64,000 nt of DNA, from NCBI GenBank assembly GCA_030834695.1, contig JAUQXK010000114.1:1-64000 (forward strand). The letters are read 5' to 3'. The notes under the pieces were generated by a model. The model was not told the DNA's origin. It did not search any database and saw only the letters and a program-made list of their open reading frames with translations. Positions 43,981 to 63,851 of the stretch are shown piece after piece; the first letter of the stretch is position 1; every line of letters starts with the position of its first letter. Source of the DNA: Desulfobacterales bacterium (GTDB taxonomy: Bacteria > Desulfobacterota > Desulfobacteria > Desulfobacterales > SpSt-501). The translations under genes and the position numbers were made by a program.

Positions 43981-45336
43981 ATGGACAAACTGCACAAATC
44001 CGAAGGCGACATCAACATCTCCCCGCGACGCGAGCAATGGCAGGCTGCGCATCTCAATGCTGAAAGCCGCGCCCTGTTGGACGAGGACGCGCGTTATTTT
44101 CTACGGCAGTCTCTTTCGACGCCTTGCCTGAACGCCATGCGCGCCTGCGAAGGGATCTACATCGAAGATACCCAGGGCCGGCGCTACATGGACTTTCACG
44201 GCAACAACGTGCATCAGGTCGGCTTCGGCAACCCCGAGGTCATCGATGCCATCAAGCGCCAGCTCGATGAGCTGCCGTTCTGCACGCGCCGTTACACCAA
44301 CCGCATGGCCGTGGATCTGGCCCGGAAACTGGCCGAAATCGCACCGGCGCCTCTGAAGAAGTCGCTGTTCTGCCCCGGCGGCGCCGAGGCGGTCGGCATC
44401 GCGCTGAAGCTGGCGCGCCTGGCCACCGGGCGCCATAAAACGATTTCGATGTGGGACGCGTTCCACGGGGCCACGCTGGACACCATATCGATCGGCGGCG
44501 AGGCGATCTTCCGCCAAGGCATGGGGCCGCTCCTGCCCGGTACCGAACACGTGCCGCCGGCCGACGAATACCGCTGCGTCTTCGGCTGCGGCGGACGCGG
44601 CGGGTGCGACCTCACTTGCGCGCGCTACGTCGAGTACATCCTGGAGAAGGAGGGTGATATCGCCGCCGTGGTCGCCGAGCCGATCCGCAGCACACCCTAC
44701 ATCCCCAGGCCCGAGTACTGGCAGGCCGTCCGCCGCGCCTGCGACCGCCACGGCGCCTTGCTCATCTTCGACGAGATCCCCCATGCCCTGGGCCGCACCG
44801 GACGGATGTTCACCTTCGAGAATTTCGGAGTGGTGCCGGACATGGTGGTCATCGGCAAAGGGCTGGGCGGAGGTGTTCTGCCGCTGGCCGCGGTCATCGC
44901 CCGCGAGGACCTGGATGTCGCCGCCGAGCGCGCCCTCGGGCACTACACCCATGAAAAGAACCCGGTTCTGTGCGCAGCGGCCCTGGCGACGATCGCCGCC
45001 ATCGAAAAGCACGGCCTGGTGGCCCACGCCCGGGATCTTGGCCGCTACACCCTGGAACGCCTGAAGGAGATGCAGGCGCGGCATCCATTGATCGGCGATG
45101 TCCGCGGGCTGGGGCTTTTCCTGGGAATCGAGCTGGTCAGGGACCGCCGGACGCGCGAGCGCGCGAACGACGAGGCCGAAGCGGTGATGTATGCGGCGCT
45201 GTCGCGGGGGTTGAGCTTCAAGACCACCATGGGCAACATCCTGACCCTCACCCCGGCCCTTACCATCACCCGCAAGGAGATGGACCAGGCCCTGGCGATC
45301 ATCGAGGACAGCATTGCCGAGGTTGAAAGAAAATAA
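43981..45336 (+). CDS. PbfA-like PLP enzyme, (R)-1-hydroxy-2-aminoethylphosphonate ammonia-lyase candidate
   Basis: 451 residues. Motifs: EGDINISPRREQW, LRQSLSTPCLNAM, YMDFHGNNVHQVGFGNP, FCPGGAEAVGIALK, the Asp of LIFDEIPHALGRTG, PLP Lys in VVIGKGLGGGVLP and GHYTHEKNP. These agree with what I recall of PbfA, which eliminates ammonia from (R)-1-hydroxy-2-aminoethylphosphonate to give phosphonoacetaldehyde. It has its own promoter and is bracketed by two copies of an intergenic repeat. The phosphonate assignment is strengthened by the PhnW-like gene and PhnT/PhnU-like transporter nearby, but substrate is not provable from sequence. Confidence 0.78.
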   Translation: MDKLHKSEGDINISPRREQWQAAHLNAESRALLDEDARYFLRQSLSTPCLNAMRACEGIYIEDTQGRRYMDFHGNNVHQVGFGNPEVIDAIKRQLDELPFCTRRYTNRMAVDLARKLAEIAPAPLKKSLFCPGGAEAVGIALKLARLATGRHKTISMWDAFHGATLDTISIGGEAIFRQGMGPLLPGTEHVPPADEYRCVFGCGGRGGCDLTCARYVEYILEKEGDIAAVVAEPIRSTPYIPRPEYWQAVRRACDRHGALLIFDEIPHALGRTGRMFTFENFGVVPDMVVIGKGLGGGVLPLAAVIAREDLDVAAERALGHYTHEKNPVLCAAALATIAAIEKHGLVAHARDLGRYTLERLKEMQARHPLIGDVRGLGLFLGIELVRDRRTRERANDEAEAVMYAALSRGLSFKTTMGNILTLTPALTITRKEMDQALAIIEDSIAEVERK

Positions 45337-45440: not shown

Positions 45441-45456
45441 ATTCCCAACCCAAAAC

Positions 45457-47898: not shown

Positions 47899-47912
47899 GC
47901 ACACCTCTCCTT

Positions 47913-49919
47913 TCAGCTGGTCGCGCGATCGACGAGTTCCACAATGTCCTGCACCACAACCTGGCTGCCGCAGTCGGCCAGACCGTCGCGCAGCATGGTG
48001 ATGCAGAACGGGCAGGCCGCGGCCGTTATTCCGGCGCCGCTGGCCAGAAGATCGTCGATCCGCTCGGCATTGATGCGTTTGCCGATTTTCTCCTCCATGA
48101 ACATCCGGCCGCCCCCCGCACCGCAGCACAACCCCTTGTCCCGGGATCGACGCATCTCCCGAGGGGCGCTCCCGCCCCCGAGGATTTGCAGAATCGCACG
48201 CGGTGCGTCGTAGAGGCCGTTCCAGCGGCCCAAGTAGCATGAATCATGAACGGCGACCGGTTCCCGGATGCCGGTTTTGACCTCGAGCCGCCCCTCTCGG
48301 AAGAGCTGCAGCAGCAGCTCGCTGGCATGCAGCACGTCGAAGCGGGCGCCGAACTGCGGGTATTCGTGCTTGAGCGTGTTGTAGCAGTGCGGGCATCCGG
48401 CCAGAATTTTCCGGGGGCGGTACTGGTTGAGAACGTTGGCGTTTTCCCGGATCATCGTCTGGGCCAGATACTCGTTTCCGGCCCGCCGGGCCATGTCCCC
48501 GTTGCAGCGCTCTTCTTCGCCGAGGATGGCGAAATCGACGCCCGCCTTCTTCAGCACCCGGACCATGGCCTGAGAGATCTGCTTGCCGCGATCGTCGAAT
48601 GACCCGGCACAGCCCACGTAGAAGAGCAGCTCCGCCTCAGGGCGGTCGCACAGGCGCGGAACATCCAGCCCCTTGGCCCAATCGCCGCGCGTGTCGCTGC
48701 CGAAGCCCCATGGATTGGACTGGTTTTCGAGGCTGATAAACGTGTCCTGCATCTCCGGCGGAAAGCTTGCCTCCATCAGGACCTGATGCTTGCGGATCTC
48801 CAACAGGATGTCCAGGTGCTGGATGTTCACCGGGCAGATGTCTTCGCACGCCCGGCACGTGGTGCAGGACCAGACGACATCCCCGCTGATGGGCGAGCCG
48901 TCCCGCACCAGCGGCTGGACGGCCTCGAAGGACCGCTTCAGGACGGCATCCGACTGCTGCAGGAGATCGACCTTGGCGTCGTGGACCACGCGCTGGGGCG
49001 AAAGCGGCTTGCCGGTCAGGGCGGCCGGGCACTGCTCCTCGCAGCGGCCGCACTCGGTGCAGGCGTAAAGATCCAGCACGCTCTTCCAGCTCAAGTCGGA
49101 CACCTTGCCGAGACCGTAGCTCAGAGCGCCTTCGGCTTCGAGGTCGGTCGGGATCATGGGCTTCGGCCGCGCGAGCGGTTTCAGGAAGACGTTGGGCGCG
49201 GCCGCCAGCATGTGCAGGTGCTTGGATCCCGGGATATAGACCAGGAATCCGAGAATCGTCAGGATGTGGGCCCAATACGCCGCTTCGTAGACAACCCGGC
49301 CGGCCGCCGGAGAGAGATTCTGCAGCCCCAGCACCTCTCCCAGCGCTTTGGATACGGTGAAAAACCGATCGTAGTCGAAGCCGGTGCCGCCGATGGCCGG
49401 CAGCAGCAACAACGCGTTGAGAAGGTGGAACGTGACGATGATCACCGCAATGAAGGCGATGATCAGTCGGGCATCCAGCCCGTTGGTCAGATAGGCTGGA
49501 CGGGCAACCAGGCGCCGGTACAGGCCATAAGCGAGGCCGAGAAGAACCAGAAAAGCCAGGATGTCGGCGATGAAAAGATACCCTCCATAAAGGCCTGGAA
49601 TAAAACCGGAGACGTGAACCGCCGGGAAAACGCCGCGCAACATCAATTCCACGGAGTGGGGCTGGACCGCCAGAAAGCCGAAAAAAATCAGAGTGTGCGC
49701 GATGCCCGGCAGCGCCTTGCGGCGAACGTTGGACTGCCCGAGCACGTCGGTGAACAGGACCTTGATCCGCACGCCCAGGCGGTCCGGCGCGGCAGCGCTG
49801 CGGCCCTGGACCCTTTTCATCAAAAGCACCAGGCGTTTGGTGCGGGCAAAAAACACGCCGAAGGCACCGATGATGGCGGCGGCCATCAAAATAGACTTGA
49901 TCGTGAGATAGGTCGTCAT
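47913..49919 (-). CDS. Membrane HdrD-type Fe-S reductase (ETF:menaquinone oxidoreductase type)
   Basis: 668 residues. The N-terminal ~235 residues are a NarI-like cytochrome-b-type membrane domain with about six helices and several His. Next come two [4Fe-4S] motifs (CTECGRCEEQCP, CTTCRACEDICP), then two CCG domains (AGCPHCYNTLKHEYP, KGLCCGAGGGRMF). This NarI-HdrD fusion is commonly encoded beside etfBA and is thought to carry electrons from ETF to the menaquinone pool. It overlaps etfA by 4 nt and is followed 14 nt later by the flavoprotein gene: a four-gene operon etfB-etfA-reductase-dehydrogenase. Confidence 0.9.
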   Translation of the reverse strand: MTTYLTIKSILMAAAIIGAFGVFFARTKRLVLLMKRVQGRSAAAPDRLGVRIKVLFTDVLGQSNVRRKALPGIAHTLIFFGFLAVQPHSVELMLRGVFPAVHVSGFIPGLYGGYLFIADILAFLVLLGLAYGLYRRLVARPAYLTNGLDARLIIAFIAVIIVTFHLLNALLLLPAIGGTGFDYDRFFTVSKALGEVLGLQNLSPAAGRVVYEAAYWAHILTILGFLVYIPGSKHLHMLAAAPNVFLKPLARPKPMIPTDLEAEGALSYGLGKVSDLSWKSVLDLYACTECGRCEEQCPAALTGKPLSPQRVVHDAKVDLLQQSDAVLKRSFEAVQPLVRDGSPISGDVVWSCTTCRACEDICPVNIQHLDILLEIRKHQVLMEASFPPEMQDTFISLENQSNPWGFGSDTRGDWAKGLDVPRLCDRPEAELLFYVGCAGSFDDRGKQISQAMVRVLKKAGVDFAILGEEERCNGDMARRAGNEYLAQTMIRENANVLNQYRPRKILAGCPHCYNTLKHEYPQFGARFDVLHASELLLQLFREGRLEVKTGIREPVAVHDSCYLGRWNGLYDAPRAILQILGGGSAPREMRRSRDKGLCCGAGGGRMFMEEKIGKRINAERIDDLLASGAGITAAACPFCITMLRDGLADCGSQVVVQDIVELVDRATS

Positions 49920-50881
49920 TTCGGTTGGCGCCGCTTCCGCAGCGCTTCGGTCAAAGCCGGAACCACCTCAAACATGTCGCCGAGGATGCCGTAGTCGGAC
50001 TTGCCGAAGATCGGGGCGTCCTTGTCATTGTTGATGGCCACGATGACTTTGGAGGTCTTCATGCCGGCGAAGTGCTGGACGGCCCCTGAGACGCCGCAGG
50101 CAATGTAAAGCTTGGGGCTGACGGTCTTGCCGGTCTGGCCGACTTGCATGCTGTGGGGCGCGTAGCCGGCATCCACGGCGGCGCGTGAGGCTCCGACGGC
50201 CGCACCCAGCACCTCGGCGCATTCCCTCAGCATCTGGTAGTTCTCGGAGGAGCCGATGGCCCGGCCGCCGGTAAGGATGATGTTGGCCTCCGCCAGGTCC
50301 GTTGCGCCGGTGCCGCTTTTCTTGACATCCTTCACGCAGACCCGGCCGGGGTCCACCGTCTGCGCCTGGAAGTTTTCCGCCGTTGCCGCGGCCGGCGCGG
50401 GGACGGGCTCCACGCTGTTGGGCCGCAGGCTGCAGACCCAGGGGCTGCCTTTCAGACGCAGGGTCGCCGTGGTGCGGCCGGAAAAATGGGACTTGGTCAC
50501 CGTGCCCTCATCCATGTCTACTTTCAGACAGTCCTGCACCAGGGGAGCATCCAGGCTGGCGGCGACCCGCGCCAGGAGATCCCGGCCCTTGGGGCTGGCC
50601 ACCCCGAGCAGTCCGGTAATCTCGAAATGCGTCACCGCCGCCGCCAGCGCCGCCGCCTGCAGCTCCGGCCGCGCCTGGATATCCGGGGCCGGCGCTGTGA
50701 CGCCGACGACTTTCCGGACGCCGTAGGTCTCAAGGACGGCCTTGGCGGCGGCCGCGTCCCCGTCGATAATAAAAGCGAAGAGGTTTCCGCCGGACTTCCG
50801 GCGGGCAGCGGTAATGACGCCGAAATTCGTTTCCTTGATGCCCTCTGCGCCGCTTTCGATCAGAATGCCGATGTTGGCCAT
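49916..50881 (-). CDS. etfA: Electron transfer flavoprotein alpha subunit
   Basis: About 321 residues from ATG 50879-50881 (ACAGGAG upstream; MANIGILIE is a typical EtfA start). A frame extending to 50950 overlaps the etfB stop and could be used instead. C-terminal FAD domain: [42 protein letters not shown]-type region, [14 protein letters not shown]. It forms a heterodimer with EtfB, carrying electrons from the dehydrogenase to the membrane reductase. No extra ferredoxin domain, so not the bifurcating Fix type by that criterion. Confidence 0.94.
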
Positions 50882-50946
50882 GCGTTTTGTTGCTCCTGTC
50901 TCGCCGCCGAGGTGCGCCGGGTCTTGCGCCGGCAACGGCTCGGCGG

Positions 50947-51714
50947 TCATAGAACGTTTTCCTGTTCCAGCAGGCCGACGAGCTGTTCGACTTTTTCCCG
51001 GGCGGACCCTTCCAGCATCCGGGCCTGTCCCCTCTCAGGGGTTGCGGCCAGCTGCACGATTTCCGTACAGCCCTCATCGCCGCTCAAGCCGAGTTCGGCC
51101 ATGGGGATCACCTTGATTTCTTTCTTCTTGGCCTGCATGATCTCCGGCAGTTTGGGATAGTGCGGTTCGTTGAGCCCGCGCGTGGCGCCGATGACGCACG
51201 GCAGGCCGACCTCCAGGACCTCGCGGCCGCCGCCGTCCACTTCCCGCTCGACGAGAGCGCGACGCCCCTCGACCGTGAGCTTCACGACGTCGCTGACCAC
51301 CGGCATCCCCAAGGCCTGCGCCAGTCGGTAAGGGGTCTGCATGCCCTCGCTGTCAACGGACTGCTTCCCGGTCAGGATCAAGTCGGGTGCGCCGTCGCGC
51401 TCGATGGCTTTCTTCAATGCCAGGCCGGTCGTACGGCTGTCCAGGAACTGGGCATCGGTCTTGACCAGAATCCCGCGTTGCGGACCCAGGGCCAGGGCCG
51501 CGCGCAAGGAGGCGACCGCCGCCTCCTTGCCGACGGTGACGACAATCACCTCGCCGCCCCCGTCCTTCCGTGATAGCCGCGCCGCCTCCTCGACCGCATA
51601 TTCATCGTAGGGATTGACGATGAACTTGCAGGTCTCCGCGAAGCCGGTTCCGCCGACCACGGTGATCCGTGCAGCGGTGTCCGGGACGTGTTTCACACAC
51701 ACATAAATGCGCAT
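50947..51714 (-). CDS. etfB: Electron transfer flavoprotein beta subunit
   Basis: 255 residues, ATG 51712-51714 with GGAAGGA upstream. Begins MRIYVCVKHVPDTAARI and has the adenine-nucleotide loop region (LILTGKQSVDSEGMQTPYRLA) and the VEREVDGGGREVLEV segment typical of EtfB. First gene of the ETF operon; divergent from the tandem lysR genes across a 134-nt region with a palindromic operator, making LysR control likely. Confidence 0.95.
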   Translation of the reverse strand: MRIYVCVKHVPDTAARITVVGGTGFAETCKFIVNPYDEYAVEEAARLSRKDGGGEVIVVTVGKEAAVASLRAALALGPQRGILVKTDAQFLDSRTTGLALKKAIERDGAPDLILTGKQSVDSEGMQTPYRLAQALGMPVVSDVVKLTVEGRRALVEREVDGGGREVLEVGLPCVIGATRGLNEPHYPKLPEIMQAKKKEIKVIPMAELGLSGDEGCTEIVQLAATPERGQARMLEGSAREKVEQLVGLLEQENVL

Positions 51715-51848: not shown

Positions 51849-52748
51849 ATGAATCTCAACCAACTCAAAATATTTTTCCTCGTCATCCGGCGCGGAAGCC
51901 TGACCGCGGCCGCCGCCGAGCTCAACATCACCCAGCCGGCCGTCACCAAGGCGATCCAGCGCCTCCAGGAACATTACGACGTGCGGTTGGTCGAACGTGC
52001 CGGCAAGAAATGGACGGTGACGGCGGCCGGCCGGGCGCTTTATCAGATTGCCGGCCGCATCTTCCAACTCGAGCACCAGGCCGAGGACTGCATCCGCGGG
52101 TTCCGGGAGCAGGGCGAACGGCGATTGCGGATCCATGCCAGCGAGACCTTCGGCGGTTACTACCTGCCGGAATTGATCAACCGCTATCAGCGCCGGCACC
52201 CGGGCGTCACGGTATCCGTGGACATTCTGCCGAACGAACGGGTCGTGGAAAACACGGCCGCGCTGGACAACGATGTCGGCTTCATCTCCGACCCCATCCG
52301 GCACCGGAACCTGACGGTGCGCGAGGTGCTGCGCGAACAGCTCGTTCTGATCGCCGCGCCCGGGCACTCTCTGACGCATCGCCGGACCGTTCGGCCGAAG
52401 GACCTCGACGGCCAGCCCATCATCATGCACGAGCCGGGATCGGCGCTGCAGAAAGCCATGGATGACCTGCTCGGCCGCCGGCGATCCAGTCTGTCGCACT
52501 ACCTGGAGTTCTCCAACAACGAGGCGATCAAACGCGCGGTTGCGGCTGGAACCGGCATTGCGTTGATCTCCGAAAAGGTGGTCGCCGAAGAAATCCGGGA
52601 GGGCAAGCTGGCGGTCCTGCGCCTGTCGCGCCCACCGATGGTGCGCTCGTTTTACATGCTGCACCACAAGAGCAAATCGATTTCGCAGCCGATGAAAAGC
52701 CTGATGGACATGGTGGCCGCCTGGGCGCTGAAGGATGATATCGAATGA
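51849..52748 (+). CDS. LysR-family transcriptional regulator 1
   Basis: 299 residues. N-terminal winged helix (MNLNQLKIFFLVIRRGSLTAAAAELNITQPAVTKAIQ) and a periplasmic-binding-like effector domain (~90-295; RIHASETFGGYYLPELINRY). Its stop overlaps the start of a second, clearly homologous lysR gene (ATGA). Divergent from etfB; probably controls the etf/dehydrogenase operon and itself through the palindrome at 51797-51811. Confidence 0.94.
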   Translation: MNLNQLKIFFLVIRRGSLTAAAAELNITQPAVTKAIQRLQEHYDVRLVERAGKKWTVTAAGRALYQIAGRIFQLEHQAEDCIRGFREQGERRLRIHASETFGGYYLPELINRYQRRHPGVTVSVDILPNERVVENTAALDNDVGFISDPIRHRNLTVREVLREQLVLIAAPGHSLTHRRTVRPKDLDGQPIIMHEPGSALQKAMDDLLGRRRSSLSHYLEFSNNEAIKRAVAAGTGIALISEKVVAEEIREGKLAVLRLSRPPMVRSFYMLHHKSKSISQPMKSLMDMVAAWALKDDIE

Positions 52749-53638
52749 ACCTCAACCAGTTGAAGATCTTCTACTTCGCCGTCAAGTCCGGCAACTTGAG
52801 CGCGGCCGCCGAAGAACTTTTCATCACCCAGCCGGCGGTCACCAAGGGCATTCAGCGCCTTCAGGAGTTCTACGAGCTGAAGTTCATCGACTATGTGGGC
52901 AAGAAGCTCGTGCTGACCGACGCCGGCGAGGTGCTGTTCAAGATCGCCGAGAAGATCTTCGACATGGAAACCCACGCCGAGGAGAGCATTCGCGATTTCC
53001 AGCAGCGCAAGCGCGGCCACATCCGGATTCTGTCGAGCGAGAGTTTCGGGGACTACTATCTGCCGGAGGTAATCATCCCCTTCTGCAAGGTCTATCCGCT
53101 GGTGCGGGTGTCCATGAACATCCTGCCGACGGAGTTGGTCGTAGAAAACACCGCCAGTTTGAGATGCGACATCGGTTTCATCTCCTACCCCGTGGATCAC
53201 GAGAAACTGGTGGTTCGGGAAATCCTGGAAGACGAACTGATCATCATAACTCCCCGGCGCCATCCGCTGGCGAGCCGGCATATGCTTCGCGCGCACGATC
53301 TCGAGGGCCAGCCCCTGATCATGCACGAGGAGCAATCCGCCCCCCGCCGGGCCATCGACGACTTCGTCCAGCGCCATGGCATTTCCGTCCGGATCCCCAT
53401 GGAGCTCTCCAGCAACCGTGCCATCAAGCGTGCCGTCGAACATGGCATCGGCATCGCCCTGATCTCCCGCAAGGTCGCCAAGGAAGAAATCGAGCAAAAA
53501 CGGCTCGTCGCGCTGTCTCTCGGGGACCCCGCCATGAAACGCAAGTTTTTCCTCGTGCATCACCGCGACAAATACATCTCCGAATCCCTGCAGCGGCTGA
53601 TGGACATGGTCTTCAAGTGGGCCTCCGAGATCCACTAG
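52745..53638 (+). CDS. LysR-family transcriptional regulator 2 (tandem paralogue)
   Basis: 297 residues, beginning MNLNQLKIFYFAVKSGNLSAAAEELFITQPAVTKGIQ. Alignable with regulator 1 over its full length (RILSSESFGDYYLPEVI; PLIMHEEQSAPRRAIDD versus PIIMHEPGSALQKAMDD). A tandem duplicate with diverged effector domain, co-translated with the first. It may sense a second metabolite of the same pathway or form heteromers. Confidence 0.94.
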   Translation: MNLNQLKIFYFAVKSGNLSAAAEELFITQPAVTKGIQRLQEFYELKFIDYVGKKLVLTDAGEVLFKIAEKIFDMETHAEESIRDFQQRKRGHIRILSSESFGDYYLPEVIIPFCKVYPLVRVSMNILPTELVVENTASLRCDIGFISYPVDHEKLVVREILEDELIIITPRRHPLASRHMLRAHDLEGQPLIMHEEQSAPRRAIDDFVQRHGISVRIPMELSSNRAIKRAVEHGIGIALISRKVAKEEIEQKRLVALSLGDPAMKRKFFLVHHRDKYISESLQRLMDMVFKWASEIH

Positions 53639-53762: not shown

Positions 53763-54314
53763 TCAACGCAGCTGAAACCAGGTCCGCTGCAAGGCCAGAA
53801 CGGTCAGGGCATCGGTGATCTCGCCGGCGACGATCATGTCCATTAGGCGATCCAGCGGATAGATCTGTGTGCGGATGATCTCGTCCGGATCGCGTCGCGG
53901 CCGCGTCAAGGTCAGTCCGCAAGCGATGAACAGATGGATGACTTCGTCGGAGTAAGCCGGCAGGATGTGAGTCCGGCCGAGGTCGATGAACTCTGCGGCC
54001 GTATAACCGGTCTCCTCCTCGAGCTCGCGGCCGGCACAGGCCCGGGGCGATTCCCCCGGCTCAAGGGTCCCCGCCGGGATCTCCAGCAGGGTTTCCCGCA
54101 CGCAGTGGCGGTACTGATGCTCCATTAAGACATTGCGGTCACCGAAGAGCGGCACGATCCCGACCGAGCCGGGGTGGCGCACCATGGCCATCTCGACCCG
54201 GCGGCCGTTCGGCAGGGTGAGATCCTCGGTCGCGAATACGAAATGCCGGCCCCGGAAGATTTCCGTGCGGCGATGGGTGTGGGACTTTGGGAATCGGGCG
54301 GCATCGGAATCCAT
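53763..54314 (-). CDS. Nudix hydrolase (ADP-ribose pyrophosphatase-like)
   Basis: 183 residues. The Nudix box is visible: GTLEPGESPRACAGRELEEETGY (G-x5-E-x7-REx-x-EE-x-G). The N-terminal beta-rich part (MVRHPGSVGIVPLFGDRNVLM) and GYTAAEFIDLGRTH match the ADPR-pyrophosphatase branch. Last gene of the minus-strand series; housekeeping or nucleotide-sugar cleanup is likely. Role in the pathway unknown. Confidence 0.9.
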   Translation of the reverse strand: MDSDAARFPKSHTHRRTEIFRGRHFVFATEDLTLPNGRRVEMAMVRHPGSVGIVPLFGDRNVLMEHQYRHCVRETLLEIPAGTLEPGESPRACAGRELEEETGYTAAEFIDLGRTHILPAYSDEVIHLFIACGLTLTRPRRDPDEIIRTQIYPLDRLMDMIVAGEITDALTVLALQRTWFQLR

Positions 54315-54336: not shown

Positions 54337-55041
54337 TCAGGCCTGAAGCAGTCTGAGGCCGAAGAGCTCGTCGAGCCGGGTGATCACCGGGGCGTCGGTC
54401 TTCACCTCAGGCCACGTGCGCTTCACCCCCGCATGCTGGATCCAAACCGGATGCAGGCCGGCGGCCCGGGCGCCGCAGACGTCGTTGCGCCAGTCGTCGC
54501 CGACGTATACGGCGTGTTCCGGACCGACCCCTAGAGACTGGAGGCATCGCCGGAACGGTGCGGGGTCGGGTTTCGGAGGGATCCCGTTTTCCCCCGCCAC
54601 CACAATCGCCCGGAAATATTTTTCGATCTCCGGAAACTCACGAATTCGGTGGGTTCCCGAAACCGGCTGGCCCTGGGTATTCGTGATCAGTGCGACACCG
54701 AAGCGCGTAGTGAGCGCCTTGAGCACGCCCAGAGCCTCGGGGAACAGCACCGAACGCTCCTTGACCGTGTCCCAATACTCGATCTCCCAGGCACCCAGCA
54801 GGTCTTCGTCGGGAACCAGGCAGTGGAAGTGATAGACTTCGCGCCACATGGCCGGCCGCGAGAAATCCGAACGCTCGTGGAACTCCTTGCGGATCCGGCG
54901 ATAGCGGTCCAGGAATTTCTCTTTGAGCGAAAGCGCCATGTGCCCGAAAATTTTTTCCTGGGCGTCCCTTTCAGCCTGCCGGAACCCGTCCGCCGAATCG
55001 ACGAGGGTCTGGCCGAAATCGAAGATGACCGCTTTGATCAT
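54337..55041 (-). CDS. HAD-superfamily hydrolase
   Basis: About 234 residues from ATG 55039-55041 (MIKAVIFDFGQTLVDS, motif I with nucleophile Asp). Motif II Thr in ALITNTQGQP, motif III Lys near PPKPDPAPF and motif IV YVGDDWRNDVCGA. Helical cap between. It lacks the motif-I sequence I associate with phosphonoacetaldehyde hydrolase, so a general phosphatase is likelier. The upstream 55042-55188 contains C-rich repeats (CCCCCTTGGCCCCCTTTG). Confidence 0.87.
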   Translation of the reverse strand: MIKAVIFDFGQTLVDSADGFRQAERDAQEKIFGHMALSLKEKFLDRYRRIRKEFHERSDFSRPAMWREVYHFHCLVPDEDLLGAWEIEYWDTVKERSVLFPEALGVLKALTTRFGVALITNTQGQPVSGTHRIREFPEIEKYFRAIVVAGENGIPPKPDPAPFRRCLQSLGVGPEHAVYVGDDWRNDVCGARAAGLHPVWIQHAGVKRTWPEVKTDAPVITRLDELFGLRLLQA

Positions 55042-55188: not shown

Positions 55189-56580
55189 TCAATCCCTGCC
55201 CCATTTCTTGAGATAATCGCCGAAGAGTTCTTCGTCTTTTGGGATGTGCTCCGGAATGGGCACGGAAACCAGCGTGTAGTTCAGGAAGTGCCTCCAGTTG
55301 ACGTTCTCGCTGGTCATGTTCCCCGCCCAGGTGCCGCCGCCGAGGGTGTCGGTGAAAGGCAGGCCGGCGCCCCAGCCGCCGCTGTTGGCGGCGGTGTGGC
55401 CCATGTTGCAGACCACCCGGCCGACCTTGGCCCTCAGCGCAAGCTTCACCCGGCGTTCGTCCAGCTCGGTGTGGATCGAAACCGAATGCCCCTTGCCGGA
55501 GAAATCGAGAATTTTCTCCAATCGGTCCAGCATCTCGTCGAAGTCGCTCCACTTCCAGACCGTGAGGACCGGGGAGATCTTCTCGCCCGAGAAGCGGTCT
55601 TCGCGTCCGATCTTCTCGCCGATGACCATGAGAAACTTGGTCGTCTCGGGGACCTTGAGGCCGGCGAGATCGGCGATGAATTTGGCGTTGTGGGCCACGA
55701 TGTCGCGATTCAGGGTCTTGCCGTCCGGCCACATGCACTTGCGCAGGGTTTCGCGCTCGGCGGTGCTGCAGAGATAGCCGCCCTCTTTCTTGAGACACTC
55801 GATCATCTGATCGTAGATGCTCGCGTGCAGGGCGACGGCGTTTTCCGAAGAACAGGACGCGGCGTTGTTGGCGATCTTGGAGAGCATGATCTTGCGGGCG
55901 GTGGCCTGGAGGTCGGGTACGGTCTCATCCACGAAGGAAACGACGTTCCCGGCGCTCACCGTCTGGGCCGGCTTGCCGGCCGCGTAAACGACCTTGACCA
56001 GGGCCGCGCCGCCGGTGGCTACGGCAAAGTCGCAGTGGGCCATCAGTTCCTGGGTCTTGGCCTGGCTGGTGTTCTGGATGCACTGCAGCAGGTCCACCGG
56101 CGCGCCGATCTTCTTCAACGCCTCGCGGCCGTACTCCACCGTCAGGTAGGAGCTCTTTTGGGTGCGGGGGTGCGGCGAGACGATCATGGCGTTGCGGGTC
56201 TTCAGAGTGGACAGCCCGATGCAGCAGATGGTCGATTCGGGGTTGGTGCAGGGGACCACATCGGCGATGACGCCGATCGGCTTGGCGTACCTGCGGATGC
56301 CGCGGGCCTTGTCCTCTTCGACCAGGCCGCAGGTCTTGATACCGCGCTGGTCCCAGAGCGTGCCCAGGGTCTTGGTCTTGATCTTGGCGAGCTTGTCCTC
56401 GTAGACCCCGATCCCGGACTCGTCCACGGCGGTCCGGGCCAGGACCTTGCGGACATCTTCCTTCTGCCACATCCAGCCGACGGCCTGGACCACTTCGTCG
56501 ACTTTCTCCTGGGGCCAGTACTGGTATTCATCGAAGGCCTTCTTGGCTTTGGCGTACATTTCCTTGATGTCGTCTTCCAT
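55189..56580 (-). CDS. CoA-acylating aldehyde dehydrogenase (SauS-like)
   Basis: 463 residues from ATG 56578-56580 (GGGAGG upstream). The catalytic Cys is in NNAASCSSENAV, and IVSPHPRTQKSS and AGKPAQTVSAGNVVSF are marks of the acylating EutE/AdhE/SauS group rather than of ordinary ALDHs. It would convert an aldehyde and CoA plus NAD+ to an acyl-CoA. SauS acts on sulfoacetaldehyde; the PhnW-like neighbour suggests phosphonoacetaldehyde as alternative substrate. It is the third enzyme in the series citrate-synthase-like pair, PhnW, ALDH, and is 93 nt from phnW. Confidence 0.85.
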   Translation of the reverse strand: MEDDIKEMYAKAKKAFDEYQYWPQEKVDEVVQAVGWMWQKEDVRKVLARTAVDESGIGVYEDKLAKIKTKTLGTLWDQRGIKTCGLVEEDKARGIRRYAKPIGVIADVVPCTNPESTICCIGLSTLKTRNAMIVSPHPRTQKSSYLTVEYGREALKKIGAPVDLLQCIQNTSQAKTQELMAHCDFAVATGGAALVKVVYAAGKPAQTVSAGNVVSFVDETVPDLQATARKIMLSKIANNAASCSSENAVALHASIYDQMIECLKKEGGYLCSTAERETLRKCMWPDGKTLNRDIVAHNAKFIADLAGLKVPETTKFLMVIGEKIGREDRFSGEKISPVLTVWKWSDFDEMLDRLEKILDFSGKGHSVSIHTELDERRVKLALRAKVGRVVCNMGHTAANSGGWGAGLPFTDTLGGGTWAGNMTSENVNWRHFLNYTLVSVPIPEHIPKDEELFGDYLKKWGRD

Positions 56581-56673
56581 GGCTCTGTTCAAACCTCCCT
56601 TGTTGGTGAACATGTTGAATCGTTAAAAAACGTTTTCCGGTTCGACGCTTTCACGGCTCTCCGGTTTTCGATG

Positions 56674-57810
56674 TCAATTGCCGATCGGCAGGGTGTAGCC
56701 CATCTTCCGGAAGGCTTCCTTGGCGACCACGAAGAACGCCTCGATGTCCTGGTGGGTGATGACGCCGAGGTTGCACAACCGGAAAGTCTCCAGCCCGAAC
56801 ATCTTGCCCGGGTAGATGGTGAACCCGCGCTCGTAGCAGTAATCGTGGAGCCTGAAGAAATCGAACTTCCCGTCCGTGGGGGCCTTGATCGTCACGACGA
56901 GCTTGCCCTGGATGCTCTTATCGATGACGGATTCCAGACCGATCTCCGCCATGCCCTTATGAACGGCCTCCCAGCATTTGCTCAGCCGTTCGTAGCGCGG
57001 CATTTCCCCCTCCTGCCAGTATTCCTTAATGGCCTGCTGCAGGGAGTAAATGGTCTGGACCGGCGGGGTGAAGTGCATCTCGCCCACGCGTTCGAAGAAA
57101 TCGTACTGCATGAAAAGGTTGCAGTAATAAGAGCGCTGGGGATACCCCTTGGACTTGACGATCTCATCGATCTTGCCCACCGTCCATGAGACGCCGGTCA
57201 TGGCCGCCAGGCCTTTCTGGGCCGAGGACATGCAGAAGTCGATGTTCTCCTTCTGCATGTCGATGGGCAGCAGCCCGTAAGTCGAGATCGTGTCGGCGAT
57301 GAACACGCAGCCGTGGTCATGGGCCATCTTGCCGATCTCTCGGACGGGGTTGAGGACTCCGGTCCCGGTTTCATGGTGGGTGGTGGCTACCACGGCGATG
57401 TCCTTGTCCGTGGCCAGCGCCTCCTTCACGACCTTCAGATCCGGCAGGCCGGTGGCCGAGAACTTCAGGTCCACGCAGGGGATTTGGTAGTAAGCGGCGA
57501 TTTCCACCATGCGGGCCGAGTAGGCGCCGTTGTTCACGACGCAGATCTTCTTGCCTGCGGGGACCAGGGAGTTGACCAGCGCGTCCTGGATGATCGTCCC
57601 GGAGCCGGTGAAGAGCACCGCCGTGTGCTTCTTCGGGTCGCCGTGGACCACCTTGACCAGCTCGCGGCGGACTTCGTCCATGATGTCCACGAATTCCTTT
57701 TCGCGCGGGCAGATATCCGGCACCACCTGGGCATACTTCACCGTGTCGGTCGTGGTGGCCGGGCCCGGGTTCAGCAGGACATTTCGTTTAACGGGTTTGA
57801 CGACTTCCAT
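56674..57810 (-). CDS. phnW: 2-aminoethylphosphonate:pyruvate transaminase-like (PhnW family)
   Basis: 378 residues from ATG 57808-57810 (GGAGGTTGAAGAC upstream). Class-V aminotransferase: LLNPGPATTTDTVKYA, VLFTGSGTIIQDALV, NNGAYSARMVEIA, the Asp of FIADTISTYGLLPID and PLP Lys in SSAQKGLAAMTG; FTIYPGKM and FRLCNLG near the end. The order and motifs match PhnW, which deaminates 2-aminoethylphosphonate to phosphonoacetaldehyde with pyruvate. Alanine-glyoxylate-type relatives have a different start. Sits between the citrate-synthase-like pair and the acylating ALDH. Confidence 0.83.
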   Translation of the reverse strand: MEVVKPVKRNVLLNPGPATTTDTVKYAQVVPDICPREKEFVDIMDEVRRELVKVVHGDPKKHTAVLFTGSGTIIQDALVNSLVPAGKKICVVNNGAYSARMVEIAAYYQIPCVDLKFSATGLPDLKVVKEALATDKDIAVVATTHHETGTGVLNPVREIGKMAHDHGCVFIADTISTYGLLPIDMQKENIDFCMSSAQKGLAAMTGVSWTVGKIDEIVKSKGYPQRSYYCNLFMQYDFFERVGEMHFTPPVQTIYSLQQAIKEYWQEGEMPRYERLSKCWEAVHKGMAEIGLESVIDKSIQGKLVVTIKAPTDGKFDFFRLHDYCYERGFTIYPGKMFGLETFRLCNLGVITHQDIEAFFVVAKEAFRKMGYTLPIGN

Positions 57811-57846
57811 GTCTTCAACCTCCATGTTCAAAATGGCGAAAGACAA

Positions 57847-57962
57847 GCATCAGGCCGTCAGCCAAGGCGCGCGGCCTTTTGGGATGCGCAGCATACGGTC
57901 CAGTATGTGAGCAGTCACAAAAGAGCCGCGCAACGCCGGATCACGGCCTGATGCGCTGTCTT
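57847..57962 (-). repeat. ~110-bp dispersed repeat, copy B, with terminal inverted repeats
   Basis: Same element as 53646-53762 in reverse. Its ends are inverted repeats: GCATCAGGCCGT near 57848 and ACGGCCTGATGC near 57942. It lies inside the operon between phnW and the citrate-synthase-like gene, so it would be transcribed. Confidence 0.65.
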
Positions 57963-59021
57963 TCACAGTTTGCCGACCTTCTTGATCCCCGATTTCTTGC
58001 TCGGGTCCTCGATCTCCTCCACGATGGCGTACCCGCTGCCGACCAGCTTCTTGCGTTCCTCGCGGGCCTGGCTCCATTCCTCGACCGTTTTGCAGACGCC
58101 CGACCGGGCGACCTTGGCCCGGTCCTTGAGCGCCGGCACCGGCCGGTCCGCCGGGCCGTCGTAGTCCGCTTTCGGCGTCAAGGCCTCGCCCAGCCGCATA
58201 TAGGGATGACGCTCGATTTCCTCGATGTAATGGGCACCGGCCGCCAGCGCGCGCGTCACCGCCAGGATGGCCCAGGTGGCCTCGGCCGAGAAACCCAGAT
58301 CCATCATGACGGCGCCGGTGGCCCCCAGCATGTCGATGTCCACCGGTTCCGGACTCTGCTTCTGGGCCGCCTGGACGATCTCTTTCATGAACGCAATGTA
58401 TTTTCCGGATACCCCGAGCTTTTCCGCACGCGCGATCATGCGCTTCGCCGCCGGGTCTTTCAGCATGAGGCCGGATACCCCGAGGGACTCGTATTCTTTG
58501 GCATTTTCCTGGACCAGCCGTGCGGCCGCATCCGCCAGGCTCATCTTCTGCGTATCGGCCCTCTTCAAGTACCGTTCCAGCCGGTTGCCGAAAGCCGAAT
58601 AGGCGCCGTAGGCGTGGCCGAAAGCCAGAATGGACGCCGCCGCGGCCTGGGTGAGAAAGGTCTTGGTGCGGGCCACGATGCGCGACATGGCGGCCGGCGC
58701 GGACAGCCCGTCCTCGAGCGCCAGGATCATCACGTAGTTGAGCATCTGCTCTTCTTCAATCAGCGGGATCCGGGACTGGTAGTCGACGAACAGCACGTCG
58801 ACGACGCCGTAGCCCTCTTCCATCAGCTCGGTCGTATCGTAGCCCCGCGATACGATGCGGTGCACGTTCTTGTAGGCCACCTCGGACACCCATTGAAACG
58901 GCGCCCGTTTGGTGTCGCGCGGCACGGTGCCGTACTCGCGCTTGAAATAATCGAACGGCATCTTCGGGCTGTCCAGGTGCCCGATGCCGCGTTTTTTCTT
59001 GGTCTCGTTCAGATCGCCCAT
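57963..59021 (-). CDS. Citrate-synthase-like protein, subunit 1
   Basis: 352 residues from ATG 59019-59021 (AAGGAGAATACAAGAA upstream). Citrate synthase/citryl-CoA lyase fold: SRGYDTTELMEEGYG, YQSRIPLIEEEQ, GHAYGAYSAFG (H136), DIDMLGATGAVMMDLGF with D230 at the place of the catalytic Asp, and RALAAGAHYIEE. The loop that normally holds the second active-site His (GxGHxxY-DPR) reads GLMLKDPAAKR (184-193) with no His. It overlaps the next paralogue by 13 nt and is probably a subunit of a heteromer. The reaction is unknown: condensation or cleavage of a CoA thioester with an oxoacid is inferred. Confidence 0.8.
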   Translation of the reverse strand: MGDLNETKKKRGIGHLDSPKMPFDYFKREYGTVPRDTKRAPFQWVSEVAYKNVHRIVSRGYDTTELMEEGYGVVDVLFVDYQSRIPLIEEEQMLNYVMILALEDGLSAPAAMSRIVARTKTFLTQAAAASILAFGHAYGAYSAFGNRLERYLKRADTQKMSLADAAARLVQENAKEYESLGVSGLMLKDPAAKRMIARAEKLGVSGKYIAFMKEIVQAAQKQSPEPVDIDMLGATGAVMMDLGFSAEATWAILAVTRALAAGAHYIEEIERHPYMRLGEALTPKADYDGPADRPVPALKDRAKVARSGVCKTVEEWSQAREERKKLVGSGYAIVEEIEDPSKKSGIKKVGKL

Positions 59022-59905
59022 TTCTTGTATTCTCCTTCCTCTTTCTGCTTCCGCGCGTATTCCTGGCGTTCCGCCTGTTTGGGCACCACCCGGTCTTCGG
59101 GTCCCACGTACTTGATCATGGACAGGTCGATCATCTGCACCATGGGCTCGTTGCGCGAAGCGCCCCAGGCCCGGCCCTTCTTCATGTTGAACAGGGCGTG
59201 CGCGGCGCAGCTCCAGCCGCGGCAGACGCTGCCGAGGCACCAGCCGGCCATGGGGGAGAAGCCGATCTCCATGAGGGCCGTATTGCCGGAGCCGACCACG
59301 TTGACCCCCACGCGCGAACGGCCCTCCCGTTTGCGGCGCTCGTGGAAATGCTGCTCCAGCGCCCGCTGAAACCGCAGGTAGACCCCTTCGAGTTCCAGGT
59401 CCTCCTGCTTGACATGGATCGGTTCCGCCCGGGGGTCGCTGTCGACGTGCTGAGGCTGGCCCATGCCCATCACGGGTTTTTCAGCGTCCATGTACTCGTC
59501 CACGAGGACCTTGGCCATCTCCTCGGGGGTCTTGCCGTCGCGGTGGGCACGCTCGAGGTATTTGTTGAGCATGTAACCGTGAGCGGCGCCCGGGCCGTGC
59601 ACGCCGCCGAAAGTGCTCACGGCGGCCGCGATCGCGCAGGGCAGGTTCGGCCGGCCGGCGCTGACGCCGATGGCCGCCACCGCCGATGGCGACATGGAGT
59701 GTTCCAGGAAAACGCCCATCTCGTATTTCAGCATCTTCTCCTCGGCCTCGGTGGGGATGCGGCCCTGGTACAACACGAAAAGCGCATCGCAAAAGGAATA
59801 GCCTTCCTCCGCCAGTTCGCTCAGGTCGTACCCGCGCACGACGGTCTTCTCCTCGGTCTTGTAGGAGATGGCGGTTTTCCTCTTAAAAACCGGTTCTCTG
59901 TTCAT
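59009..59905 (-). CDS. Citrate-synthase-like protein, subunit 2
   Basis: 298 residues from ATG 59903-59905 (GCGGAGG upstream). Related to subunit 1: VRGYDLSELAEEGYSF, YQGRIPTEAEE, FGGVHGPGAAHGY (H103/H109), GMGQPQHVDSDPRAE (H153 in the position of the second catalytic His), but the Asp segment reads VGVNVVGSGN, with N202 in place of Asp. It therefore keeps what subunit 1 lacks and vice versa. First gene of its own minus-strand run, with a promoter about 110 nt upstream. Confidence 0.8.
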   Translation of the reverse strand: MNREPVFKRKTAISYKTEEKTVVRGYDLSELAEEGYSFCDALFVLYQGRIPTEAEEKMLKYEMGVFLEHSMSPSAVAAIGVSAGRPNLPCAIAAAVSTFGGVHGPGAAHGYMLNKYLERAHRDGKTPEEMAKVLVDEYMDAEKPVMGMGQPQHVDSDPRAEPIHVKQEDLELEGVYLRFQRALEQHFHERRKREGRSRVGVNVVGSGNTALMEIGFSPMAGWCLGSVCRGWSCAAHALFNMKKGRAWGASRNEPMVQMIDLSMIKYVGPEDRVVPKQAERQEYARKQKEEGEYKKWAI

Positions 59906-60130: not shown

Positions 60131-60973
60131 TCAAAAGACCTTGATCGCCACGGCACCGGCGGTGACGACGGCAATCGACACATAGCGCAGGGGACTGAAT
60201 TTTTCCTTCAGAATCAAGAGGGCCGCAATTCCGGTGAATATGATCGATGTTTCTCGCAGCGCCGCCACCAGCGCGATCGGAGCGTGGGTCATGGCCCAAA
60301 GCGCCAGGCTGTAGGAGGCAAACGTACAGGCTCCGCCGACAAATCCCATTTTCCATCGATTCCGGATATGGCGAATGACCGCCCCGCGGCGCCACGCGAT
60401 GGAACCCGCGAAAATAATGACACCGGTCAGCAGGAGCATCCAGCCGGTGTAACTGAAGGCATTCCCGGACACGCGCGCGCCGAAACCGTCGACCAATGTG
60501 CCGCCCGCGATCACCCCTGCATTGAGCAGCGCAAAGACCACCGGGACTAGCCGAAAACCCTTGGATGATGCGCTGTCTGCCGCCAGCAGCCAGACGCCTC
60601 CGCAGACGAGCATGATCCCCGTCCATCCCCCCCACGACGGCCGCTCGCCCAATACCGCCAGGGTCAGCAGAGCGGTAAATACCGGCGCCGTACCGCGCAT
60701 GACGGGATACACCAGGCTCAACTCGCCGCCTTGATATGCCAGCACCAGCAGCCCGAAATAGGCCGGGTGGATGAGCACCGAAACGGACAAACAGCCCCAG
60801 CTGGCCGGGTGGGGCAGCGGCAGAAACATCAACACCACCGCCGTCACTCCGGCAATGCCCGTGGTGATCAAAACCGTGTCGAGAAAGGGATCGGAACCGG
60901 ATTTGACCAGGGCGTTCCAGCTTGCATGGAGGGCCGCTCCGAGCAGGACCGCCAGCATGACGTCCAAAGACAA
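60131..60973 (-). CDS. EamA/DMT-family transporter, possibly phosphonate-associated
   Basis: 280 residues with ten predicted helices (MLAVLLGAALHASWNALVK; GELSLVYPVMRGTAPVFTALL). A DMT subgroup of this length is recurrently linked to phosphonate-use clusters (a putative membrane protein family), and this protein resembles it in the LHASWN and LSLVYP motifs; that assignment is from memory and uncertain. It lies between the ABC importer and the phnW operon. Confidence 0.85.
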   Translation of the reverse strand: MSLDVMLAVLLGAALHASWNALVKSGSDPFLDTVLITTGIAGVTAVVLMFLPLPHPASWGCLSVSVLIHPAYFGLLVLAYQGGELSLVYPVMRGTAPVFTALLTLAVLGERPSWGGWTGIMLVCGGVWLLAADSASSKGFRLVPVVFALLNAGVIAGGTLVDGFGARVSGNAFSYTGWMLLLTGVIIFAGSIAWRRGAVIRHIRNRWKMGFVGGACTFASYSLALWAMTHAPIALVAALRETSIIFTGIAALLILKEKFSPLRYVSIAVVTAGAVAIKVF

Positions 60974-61061: not shown

Positions 61062-62162
<1,101 letters not shown>

Positions 62163-62165: not shown

Positions 62166-63851
62166 CTATACCCCCTGCTTTTGAACGTCCAGGCCGGTTT
62201 TCTTCGCGATGACCTTCAGCAGGGCCATGGACACCGCCACAATGGCGATCACCTTGACGGTCGTGGCCGAGGCCACGCCGAGTTCGCCCAGCTGCGCCGT
62301 CAGAAAGATGTAAACCGATGCTAGATCAAAGCCCGGCGCCACCAGGAAAATGACCGAGCTGAGCGACATCATGGTGGTCATGAACGTGTAGATGAAACCG
62401 GCCACGAAGGCCGAAAACATGATGGGCAAAATCACCTTGAAAAAAACGGTCAGAAAATCCGCCCCCAGATCCGCGGAGGCTTCTTCGATTTCGACGCTGA
62501 TCTGGTGCAGCTTGCTGATGCCGGCCTCCACCCCCACGGCGAGAAAACGAAACACGCAGTTCAGGATGATGATCCAGATGGTCCCGGTCAGCAAAAACGG
62601 CGGCCGGTTGAAGGCGATGATGTAGCCGACGCCGATCACGGTCCCCGGCAGCGCGAACCCGGAAAGGGCCAGCATCTCCATGAGGTGCCGCCCGGGAAAC
62701 TTGCCGCGCATGATCACGTAGGCGAGCAGGGTGCCGACCACCGCGCCGAACAGTCCGGCCCCCAGCGAGACCTTGAAGCTGTTCCAGATGGCGAGATTGG
62801 ACTGGGTGTTGAGCATGTGGTCGATCACGAAGGTGTTGTCGACGCCCACGATCTTGACGAAGGAGCCGAACACGATCACCCCGAAGCTCAGCAGCACCAG
62901 GATCGTCACCGGAATGCACACGATCAGGAACGGGAGCTTGATGGCCGGATCGATCGGCCGGAGTTCGGTCGCGGTCGGCTTGCCGACGATCGTAGTGTAG
63001 CCCTTGCCGGCCAGAACGAAATTGTGCAGGATGAAAATGAGGATGCACGGCGCGATCAGGACGACCGAAAGGACGCTCGCCATGTTGAAATCCGCCTCGC
63101 CGGTGATCATCAGATAGGTGTCCGGAGCCAGGAACGGGGTCCGCCCCCCGAGGATGGCGGGGTTGCCGAACTCGGCGATGGTCATGACGAAGACCAGCAA
63201 GGCCGCCTTGAGCAGTCCCGGCGCAGCCAGCGGGATGGTGATCGAGCGCATGATCCGGAACTCCGACGCCCCCATGTCGCTCGCCGATTCCTCCAGGCTG
63301 GGGTTGACGGCGTTCAGGACGTTTTCGATCATCATGTAGGATAGCGGCAGAAAGGCGAGGACCTGGGCTGCGATGACTCCGGTCCAGCTGTAGATGTTGA
63401 AGTTCAGGTGCAGGAGATTGTTGATCATCCCGTTCTTGCCGAACAGGGTGATCAGCGAGATCGAAAAAATGTAGGGCGGTGCCGCCAGCGGCAGGAGCGC
63501 GATCATTTTCAGCGGCTTGCGGATCCAGAGCGGTCCGCGGGTCGTCAGGTAGGCGAAGCAGAACCCGACGACCAGCAGGATGATCATGGTCGCCAGCCCG
63601 AGGATGAGCGTGTTGAGGAAGGACCAGTAGTAGAACTCGTACTTGAAGAACTCGGCGTAGAAATCAAGCGTGAACCCCTGGTCGCCCCACAGGCTGAACA
63701 CCAGCACCGAGGCGATCGGGTAGAGGAGAAAGACGGCCAGAAGGGCGAACAGCCCGCCCGCGAACAGGTTGATCAGGTTGGCGTTGATGAACGCCCTCAG
63801 CCGGTACCACCAGTTTTTGCGGACGATGGAGCCCATCACCAGTTCGGCCAT
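62166..63851 (-). CDS. Fused double-domain ABC permease (PhnU/FbpB-like)
   Basis: 561 residues with about twelve helices in two homologous halves. Each half carries an EAA-type loop: EESASDMGASEFRIMRSITIPLAAPG and EEASADLGADFLTVFFKVILP. This fused form is used by ferric-iron and putative 2-aminoethylphosphonate importers. With the PhnW- and PbfA-like enzymes nearby, aminophosphonate import is the favoured inference; iron is the main alternative. Confidence 0.92.
   Translation of the reverse strand: MAELVMGSIVRKNWWYRLRAFINANLINLFAGGLFALLAVFLLYPIASVLVFSLWGDQGFTLDFYAEFFKYEFYYWSFLNTLILGLATMIILLVVGFCFAYLTTRGPLWIRKPLKMIALLPLAAPPYIFSISLITLFGKNGMINNLLHLNFNIYSWTGVIAAQVLAFLPLSYMMIENVLNAVNPSLEESASDMGASEFRIMRSITIPLAAPGLLKAALLVFVMTIAEFGNPAILGGRTPFLAPDTYLMITGEADFNMASVLSVVLIAPCILIFILHNFVLAGKGYTTIVGKPTATELRPIDPAIKLPFLIVCIPVTILVLLSFGVIVFGSFVKIVGVDNTFVIDHMLNTQSNLAIWNSFKVSLGAGLFGAVVGTLLAYVIMRGKFPGRHLMEMLALSGFALPGTVIGVGYIIAFNRPPFLLTGTIWIIILNCVFRFLAVGVEAGISKLHQISVEIEEASADLGADFLTVFFKVILPIMFSAFVAGFIYTFMTTMMSLSSVIFLVAPGFDLASVYIFLTAQLGELGVASATTVKVIAIVAVSMALLKVIAKKTGLDVQKQGV

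Follow-up and report, generated by a model that had tools for sequence, protein, structure and literature searches.

In the abstract of PMC10590968, 2-aminoethylphosphonate is given as the most common natural phosphonate. Two fates alone are described for phosphonoacetaldehyde in extracts of a review (PMC10574752): it is hydrolysed by PhnX, or it is oxidised by PhnY and then passed on to PhnA. Extracts of a survey (PMC9381506), which counts phnX, phnA, phnY, phnZ, palA and carbon-phosphorus (C-P) lyase genes, agree on them. The 2013 genome paper on Desulfotignum phosphitoxidans (PMC4046663, extracts) states that PhnX was found neither in this organism nor in other sulfate reducers, and leaves their use of 2-aminoethylphosphonate open. 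The DNA described here, a stretch of 64,000 nucleotides from a Desulfobacterales bacterium (contig JAUQXK010000114.1; the whole stretch is referred to as the window), carries a minus-strand run of two citrate-synthase-like genes (CS-A and CS-B), a PhnW-type aminotransferase gene and an aldehyde dehydrogenase gene. The run also includes the gene of a HAD-superfamily hydrolase (called HAD below) and an ABC transporter that has aminoethylphosphonate types among its best matches.

We propose, with a probability of about 0.42, that this gene set provides an oxygen-independent third fate of phosphonoacetaldehyde, in which the aldehyde would be converted to phosphonoacetyl-CoA and the C-P bond of this thioester would be cut by CS-A and CS-B. 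That a phosphonoacetyl-CoA route of some kind operates is probable. The route via a CoA ester seems undescribed. The literature searched, mostly titles and abstracts with most subscription papers outside its scope, held no description of the module, and in the extracts found the term phosphonoacetyl-CoA occurs in a context of Burkholderia biosynthesis only; citrate synthase, acylating and CoA terms do not occur in PMC8154272 and PMC12366243. The original prediction for this stretch had named CS-A, CS-B, PhnW and the dehydrogenase as a candidate new route, and all four genes are present on the minus strand (Table 1).

Conservation of the gene set

Relatives of CS-A, 72-92% identical in their best segment, are found at 54 loci (numbered with L below; genomes are numbered with G) in a search of one genome per species, which reaches close relatives only and undercounts distant forms. 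Wherever the sequence extends far enough (at least 400 nt, 47 loci), CS-B is the next gene after CS-A, in 30 of these at the offset seen in the window; of the 32 loci that leave at least 3.5 kb, 31 have the dehydrogenase within that distance. Where at least 5.5 kb is available, 18 of 26 loci contain HAD; in L022 it lies on the opposite strand and in L029 at a distance of 9 kb. The gene set is conserved far beyond chance, and the four genes of the original prediction do form a unit, the lack of which would have counted against it; the extent of this unit was drawn too narrowly, its likely further parts being the downstream HAD and the upstream EamA-type gene and ABC transporter. Beyond CS-A, CS-B, the dehydrogenase, PhnW and HAD, every gene cluster is limited to 14 or fewer of the 54 loci, and therefore the product of the module should already be a central metabolite.

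The titles of the locus records include Desulfobacterales, Deltaproteobacteria, Planctomycetota, Chloroflexi, Verrucomicrobia, Gemmatimonadales, Prolixibacteraceae, Latescibacterota, SAR324 and others. Nine phyla can be counted from the titles of the tree records, some of them doubtful, as titles of metagenome bins can mislead. In a quick tree of the loci Chloroflexota and Verrucomicrobiota are single branches and the remainder is mixed. A search of plasmids returned no CS-A at E 1e-15, and relatives of the dehydrogenase only below 60% identity.

A panel of 50 genomes with CS-A was composed of 46 genomes reached through the loci and of G000 (the genome of the window), G279, G299 and G374; L031 (same assembly as L017) and the short or partial L004, L009, L038, L049, L050, L051 and L055 were omitted. 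It was compared with a draw of 395 genomes from the phylum of the window, in which the window's genome is counted throughout. CS-A-type genes at E 1e-20 occur in 4 of the 395, and the set is therefore rare and scattered. PhnW is over its cut-off in 37/50 genomes of the panel and 15/395 of the draw, and PbfA in 32/50 and 3/395, respectively.

PhnX (TIGR01422) exceeds its cut-off of 220 bits in none of the 50 panel genomes, the best score in the window's genome being 47.2 bits. PhnA (TIGR02335) has no match at E 1e-15 in the window's genome and is over its cut-off in 2/50. PhnY is over its cut-off in none of the ten aldehyde-dehydrogenase matches of the window's genome; the nine others than the window's own reach at best 329.1 bits against 635.65, scored on the matched stretches rather than on whole genes. 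Thus phnX, phnY and phnA, whose presence or absence in this genome the original prediction had singled out as informative, are all missing from it at their cut-offs. Among the 14 PhnW-positive genomes of the draw without a CS-A match, 8 have PhnX over the cut-off, each within 1.6 kb of PhnW, with the gene order PhnX, PbfA, PhnW in G213 and G391. PhnX therefore does occur in some genomes of the window's phylum (8 found), in contrast to the statement on sulfate reducers in the extracts of PMC4046663. A Fisher test of 8/14 against 0/37 gives p 5e-6, with relatedness and the phylum mix of the panel ignored. The CS set seems to take the place of PhnX.

The genes that surround the constant core vary. 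At least one of the PhnW, PbfA, PhnX-like, PhnD and PhnA clusters is present in 37/54 loci; cluster membership was assigned by BLAST linkage, with one PbfA, one PhnX-like and one PhnD member checked by profile and PhnW and PhnA by genome search. PbfA in L027 is over its cut-off (713.9 bits), whereas an alcohol dehydrogenase of the HpnZ type (302.5 bits) and PhnD (240.4 bits) in L002, the PhnX-like protein of L022 (170.2 bits) and GlpT-family transporters in L054 stay below theirs. L020 contains an MtmB-like methyltransferase, and the one frame of this cluster tested by Pfam matches MtmB at 308 bits; these genes may encode a pyrrolysine-free methyltransferase that acts on methylated aminophosphonates. 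Varied entry genes and a constant core fit the expectation that several compounds converge on phosphonoacetaldehyde and that the CS set takes over from there. As a separate observation, two open frames of the MtmB cluster, with no in-frame TAG, lie near the CS module at each of L020:6400-9191, L022:7154-9956 and L053:15169-17943.

The dehydrogenase and the two citrate-synthase-like subunits

The dehydrogenase is of the CoA-acylating type as judged from its family matches, which agrees with the original prediction. Its best NCBIfam model is SauS (NF047625; 497.8 bits over nearly full length, below the cut-off of 600), followed by AdhE (360 bits), acetylating acetaldehyde dehydrogenase (302 bits) and PRK15398, which we take to be EutE; the PhnY model TIGR03250 gives 25.8 bits against a cut-off of 635.65. 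Cys243, catalytic by analogy, is invariant in 35 proteins. The CS-linked dehydrogenases sampled, including that of the window, form one clade in a tree of 23 rows, for which 18 of the 35 alignment rows were used, and members of this clade are present in 47/50 panel genomes. Among the three panel genomes that lack one, G404 and G416 have loci that stop at PhnW, before the expected place of the dehydrogenase. The search of the third, G279 (95% complete), returned no member of the clade, and its locus has the order aldehyde:ferredoxin oxidoreductase, HAD, CS-A, CS-B, CoA-transferase (one CoA-transferase subunit assigned by Pfam, the other by eye). This arrangement may be an alternative path from aldehyde to acyl-CoA and would point to an acyl-CoA intermediate.

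The genomic setting suggests that the substrate of the dehydrogenase is phosphonoacetaldehyde. The original prediction had left the choice between phosphonoacetyl-CoA and sulfoacetyl-CoA, and the former is backed by the genomes, whereas a sulfonate context is not. A path from taurine via sulfoacetaldehyde to sulfoacetyl-CoA draws on SauS as the nearest named family of the dehydrogenase, and on G437, the genome that holds L048, where a paralogous dehydrogenase has a TauC-like permease (302 bits, cut-off 342) in its vicinity. This paralogue, a second one and a SauS over its cut-off (644.6 bits), however, fall outside the CS-linked clade with 100% SH-aLRT, and it is PhnW and PbfA that mark the CS genomes. 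The sulfonate reading was set aside after this tree and is highly improbable. The acylating paralogue beside the TauC-like permease (L065:6429-7835, in the genome of L048; SauS model 523.8 bits, below the cut-off), which also has a class III aminotransferase close by, is a likely sulfoacetaldehyde counterpart.

Both CS-A and CS-B match the citrate synthase family PF00285, and a sequence profile search of the PDB finds the citryl-CoA lyase 6HXP with E 6e-22 for CS-A and 2e-15 for CS-B. Neither protein reaches the cut-offs of the PRK06224 citryl-CoA lyase subfamilies (CS-A at best 116 against 212, CS-B at best 99.4 against 193). The active site was compared in 50 CS-A-type proteins, namely 47 alignment rows, two single-gene forms and one protein from G279, with positions assigned via the 6HXP alignment; the alignment covers 46 of 47 candidate loci, L009 being omitted. 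His69, His103, Arg159 and Arg229 are invariant in 50/50, and further invariant residues include His109, His153 and Asp157. Arg229 was located via CS-B, as the 6HXP alignment of CS-A ends before that residue. We take the first four to be His238, His274, Arg329 and Arg401 of pig citrate synthase, in numbering and in role. The position of the second His is occupied by Gln150 in 50/50, and the base position by Val (46) or Ile (4); these presumably correspond to His320 and Asp375 of the pig enzyme. Thus the first His of citrate synthase is present in 50/50 CS-A-type proteins and both the catalytic Asp and the second His in 0/50. In citrate synthase this Asp generates the enolate of acetyl-CoA.

CS-B (n=45) has Tyr/Phe, Ala and Leu at the positions of His274, Arg329 and Asp375 and retains Arg257; most of the active site is gone. 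In G299 and G374 a lone CS gene, which shares about 46% identity with CS-A and shows the same residue changes, precedes a dehydrogenase with 65% identity to that of the window. Because the site of CS-B is lost and the single-gene forms share the changes of CS-A, CS-A probably holds the working site as the catalytic subunit, and CS-B is probably a non-catalytic partner acquired later. CS-A is also the most conserved protein of the set, with a mean column identity of 88% against 79% for the dehydrogenase, 77% for CS-B and 60% for HAD (alignments of 47, 35, 44 and 21 rows, respectively). In L063 and L064 the single-gene CS form stands beside the dehydrogenase, together with PhnX-like genes and class III aminotransferases; L063 has phnS2-like transport and L064 a CitE-like gene.

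Proposed cleavage of the carbon-phosphorus bond

The reactions of PhnW and PbfA are known from their families. In the proposed pathway 2-aminoethylphosphonate would be imported and transaminated by PhnW to phosphonoacetaldehyde, and PbfA would yield the same aldehyde from the 1-hydroxy compound. The dehydrogenase, with NAD and CoA, would then convert the aldehyde to phosphonoacetyl-CoA. The CS-A/CS-B heteromer would seat this thioester with the phosphonate at the site that binds oxaloacetate in citrate synthase, and the C-P bond would be cut to give phosphate and the enolate of acetyl-CoA, held by the retained His103. The chemistry would be that of citryl-CoA lyase, the phosphoryl group playing the part of oxaloacetate, and the net yield would be phosphate, NADH and an energy-rich thioester, acetyl-CoA. 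No Asp base would be needed because breakage of the C-P bond itself generates the enolate. Judged from sequence, cleavage suits CS-A because the His for the enolate and the His and Arg residues for the anionic partner are kept and the negative Asp, close to the presumed place of the phosphonate, is dropped. HAD might clear a phosphorylated side product or aid the cut.

A condensation or C-C step, which the original prediction had expected of the citrate-synthase-like pair, is not supported and was set aside, as C-P cleavage fits this active site better, with the base Asp in 0/50, Gln in place of the second His in 50/50 and the CS-B site mostly lost. Such a step could nevertheless be imagined as a condensation of phosphonoacetyl-CoA with a keto acid, e.g. 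oxaloacetate, after which the beta-hydroxyphosphonate would shed phosphate in the manner of a Horner-Wadsworth-Emmons reaction to leave an aconitate-type alkene. The residues assumed to hold oxaloacetate (His69, Arg159 and Arg229) are kept, the absence of an alkoxide-protonating His is consistent with it, and the product would be a central metabolite. This chemistry is very improbable, as 50/50 proteins lack the base for carbanion formation, and we know of no precedent for it, no literature search having been aimed at one.

Several observations weigh against the proposed cleavage by CS-A and CS-B. None of the five phosphonate marker clusters is present in the available stretch of 17/54 loci, of which several are short or contain an HpnZ-type alcohol dehydrogenase, and 13/50 panel genomes have no PhnW over the cut-off. 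The matches of the EamA-type protein and of the transporter to phosphonate families are all below their cut-offs, and the nearest named family of the dehydrogenase acts on sulfoacetaldehyde. PhnJ of C-P lyase is present in 2/50 panel genomes, one of which is the window's own (G000:C68:80402-81214). Of the 14 PhnW-positive genomes without CS-A, 6 have no PhnX, and therefore the absence of PhnX is by itself no reason to expect the CS set; PhnX is absent too from two further genomes with PhnW below the cut-off (8/16 positive in total in the same search). AlphaFold models of CS-A and CS-B, with mean pLDDT of 49 and 58, were too poor and were not used for fold searches. Further objections come from HAD and the PhnX-like genes. 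HAD is found almost as regularly as the CS genes and has no firm task in the best model. PhnX-like genes, so named from their scores with the PhnX model (97-118 bits, cut-off 220) and for G299 and the genome of L022 from TIGR03351 too, are present in 11/50 genomes, which may have a phosphonatase-type activity. Six of the 14 genomes without HAD have such a gene (97-115 bits), as if an enzyme of the HAD type were needed, and one PhnX-like protein aligned to solved PhnX retains the Lys of the PhnX motif.

The same observations lead to a reading in which the route to phosphonoacetyl-CoA is kept but HAD is the C-P hydrolase, its Asp attacking phosphorus as a nucleophile as in PhnX. This reading, in which CS-A and CS-B would act in another step, e.g. 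in holding or delivering the enolate or in acetyl transfer, is rather unlikely but is the main alternative to cleavage by the CS pair. A HAD relative is present in 36/50 CS-A genomes, including some where it is absent from the locus, and is single-copy in 35 of the 36 (G397 has a second, broken copy). One HAD-less genome, G430, has a fragment of the HAD gene cut off at a contig end. Of 21 HAD sequences, 18 lack the second motif-I Asp, the residue that donates a proton to the oxygen leaving group in HAD phosphatases, and 3 have it; the PhnX sequence 2iof has Ala at this position. The cap region has three invariant Arg residues, which would also suit the hydrolase. However, seven genomes (G400, G401, G404, G422, G424, G427 and G435), whose assemblies may be incomplete, have neither HAD nor a PhnX-like gene, and the HAD cap has no invariant Lys for imine chemistry in the 21-row alignment. 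HAD is moreover the least conserved protein of the set, and the most conserved one, CS-A, would be left without a task. HAD as a classical phosphonatase was set aside, given the missing cap Lys and best solved sequence relatives that are other HAD proteins and not PhnX.

The PhnX-like genes would also suit a scheme in which a HAD-type or other hydrolase first cleaves phosphonoacetaldehyde, an ordinary acetaldehyde dehydrogenase follows, and the CS pair is a variant of citrate synthase or citryl-CoA lyase working on acetyl-CoA. Families of the acetaldehyde type come next among the matches of the dehydrogenase, and the arrangement in G279 would equally convert acetaldehyde to acetyl-CoA. This scheme is improbable, with PhnX over the cut-off in 0/50, a dehydrogenase that scores 498 bits with the sulfoacetaldehyde model against 360 (AdhE) and 302 (acetylating), and a CS-A from which the base for deprotonation of acetyl-CoA is missing.

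CS-A and CS-B might, finally, merely hydrolyse or transfer the thioester to give phosphonoacetate, to be cut by a PhnA-type or other hydrolase. In G436 the PhnA over the cut-off coincides by coordinates with the L047 gene that precedes CS-A, and L068 has, next to its dehydrogenase and HAD genes, a PhnA-like gene (209.6 bits, below the cut-off). However, PhnA is over the cut-off in just two panel genomes and not in that of the window, and the thioester would be made and then wasted without evident use; the chance of this being the true course is very small.

If cleavage by CS-A and CS-B is accepted, the base-less heteromer of the citrate synthase fold could, tentatively, be regarded as a further class of C-P-cleaving system in addition to the phosphonatase, phosphonoacetate-hydrolase, oxidative and C-P-lyase types, independent of PhnX and distributed in many bacterial groups.

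Neighbouring genes and known systems

The features of the window are collected in Table 1. The PbfA-type pair lies about 10-13 kb from the four-gene stretch, with its members on opposite strands. The FAD/GcvT protein is a possible N-demethylase of methylated aminophosphonates, and the PbfA pair with the FAD/GcvT, iron-sulfur and Etf-like genes (42191-51714) is perhaps an N-demethylation branch for such compounds. NUDIX genes recur near HAD or CS genes, in the window (53763-54314), at L064:8626-9138 (by eye, beside the single CS gene) and at L069:7945-8508 (near HAD).

Table 1. Features of the window, and one just past its end. The family profile scan took the longest open frames, which begin slightly upstream of the assigned gene starts.
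Feature	Coordinates	Strand	Remarks
CS-A, citrate-synthase-like subunit, 298 aa	59009..59905	-	motif GQPQH; base position without Asp
CS-B, diverged citrate-synthase-like subunit, 352 aa	57963..59021	-	start overlaps the end of CS-A
PhnW/AepZ-type 2-aminoethylphosphonate aminotransferase, 378 aa	56674..57810	-	TIGR03301, 422.8 bits (cut-off 360.8)
CoA-acylating aldehyde dehydrogenase, 463 aa	55189..56580	-	acylating-family matches; related to SauS
HAD-superfamily hydrolase ('c3')	54337..55041	-	directly downstream of the dehydrogenase
EamA-type membrane protein	60131..60973	-	best NCBIfam TIGR03340 'phosphonate utilization associated', 138.1 bits (below cut-off 288.15)
ABC transporter ATPase	61062..62162	-	PotA 375.3 bits, about equal to PhnT2 375.0 bits (PhnT2 cut-off 457.7)
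ABC transporter permease	62166..63851	-	best match PhnU2, 280.4 bits (below cut-off 593.25)
phnS2-like binding protein	contig C50:64024-65247		just past the window; 172.6 bits (below cut-off 392.75)
PbfA-type ammonia-lyase	42191..43579	-	NF049939, 648.2 bits (cut-off 525)
PbfA-type ammonia-lyase, copy 2	43981..45336	+	NF049939, 713 bits (cut-off 525)
FAD oxidoreductase (DAO) fused to GcvT-type folate-binding domain	45457..48240	-	
CCG-domain iron-sulfur electron-transfer protein	47913..49919	-	
EtfA- and EtfB-like, two genes	49916..51714	-	judged by eye from sequence
Second LysR-like gene	51849-52748		by eye
LysR-type regulator	52745..53638	+	matches include TIGR03339 'aminoethylphosphonate catabolism associated', 181.1 bits (below cut-off 341.1)
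NUDIX hydrolase	53763..54314	-	Pfam match
Open frame, 2924 aa	26949-35723	-	

For sulfate reducers that have PhnW and no PhnX, the module offers a testable answer to how 2-aminoethylphosphonate is used. If the proposal is true, phosphonoacetyl-CoA is added as a catabolic intermediate, perhaps together with a fold not known before to cleave C-P bonds, and some degraders escape surveys based on phnX, phnA, phnY, phnZ, palA and C-P-lyase genes.

Desulfotignum phosphitoxidans is likewise reported to be PhnX-less, and the extracts of its genome paper (PMC4046663) describe no such module. The PhnWX pathway shares PhnW, often PbfA, and the same entry aldehyde with the system described here, which has no PhnX over the cut-off in 50 genomes and in its place carries a CS pair and a CoA-acylating dehydrogenase. 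The PhnWAY pathway shares the oxidation of the aldehyde by a member of the same dehydrogenase superfamily; the dehydrogenase of the window, however, is CoA-acylating and not PhnY, and PhnA is absent from its genome. SauS is the best-matching family of this dehydrogenase, which stays below the cut-off and stands apart from the over-cut-off SauS in the tree. Compared with citryl-CoA lyase and citrate synthase (6HXP, PRK06224), to which CS-A is homologous, the catalytic Asp and the second His are lost, two unlike subunits are present and all PRK06224 cut-offs are missed, whereas the His on the enolate side and the His and Arg residues on the partner side are kept.

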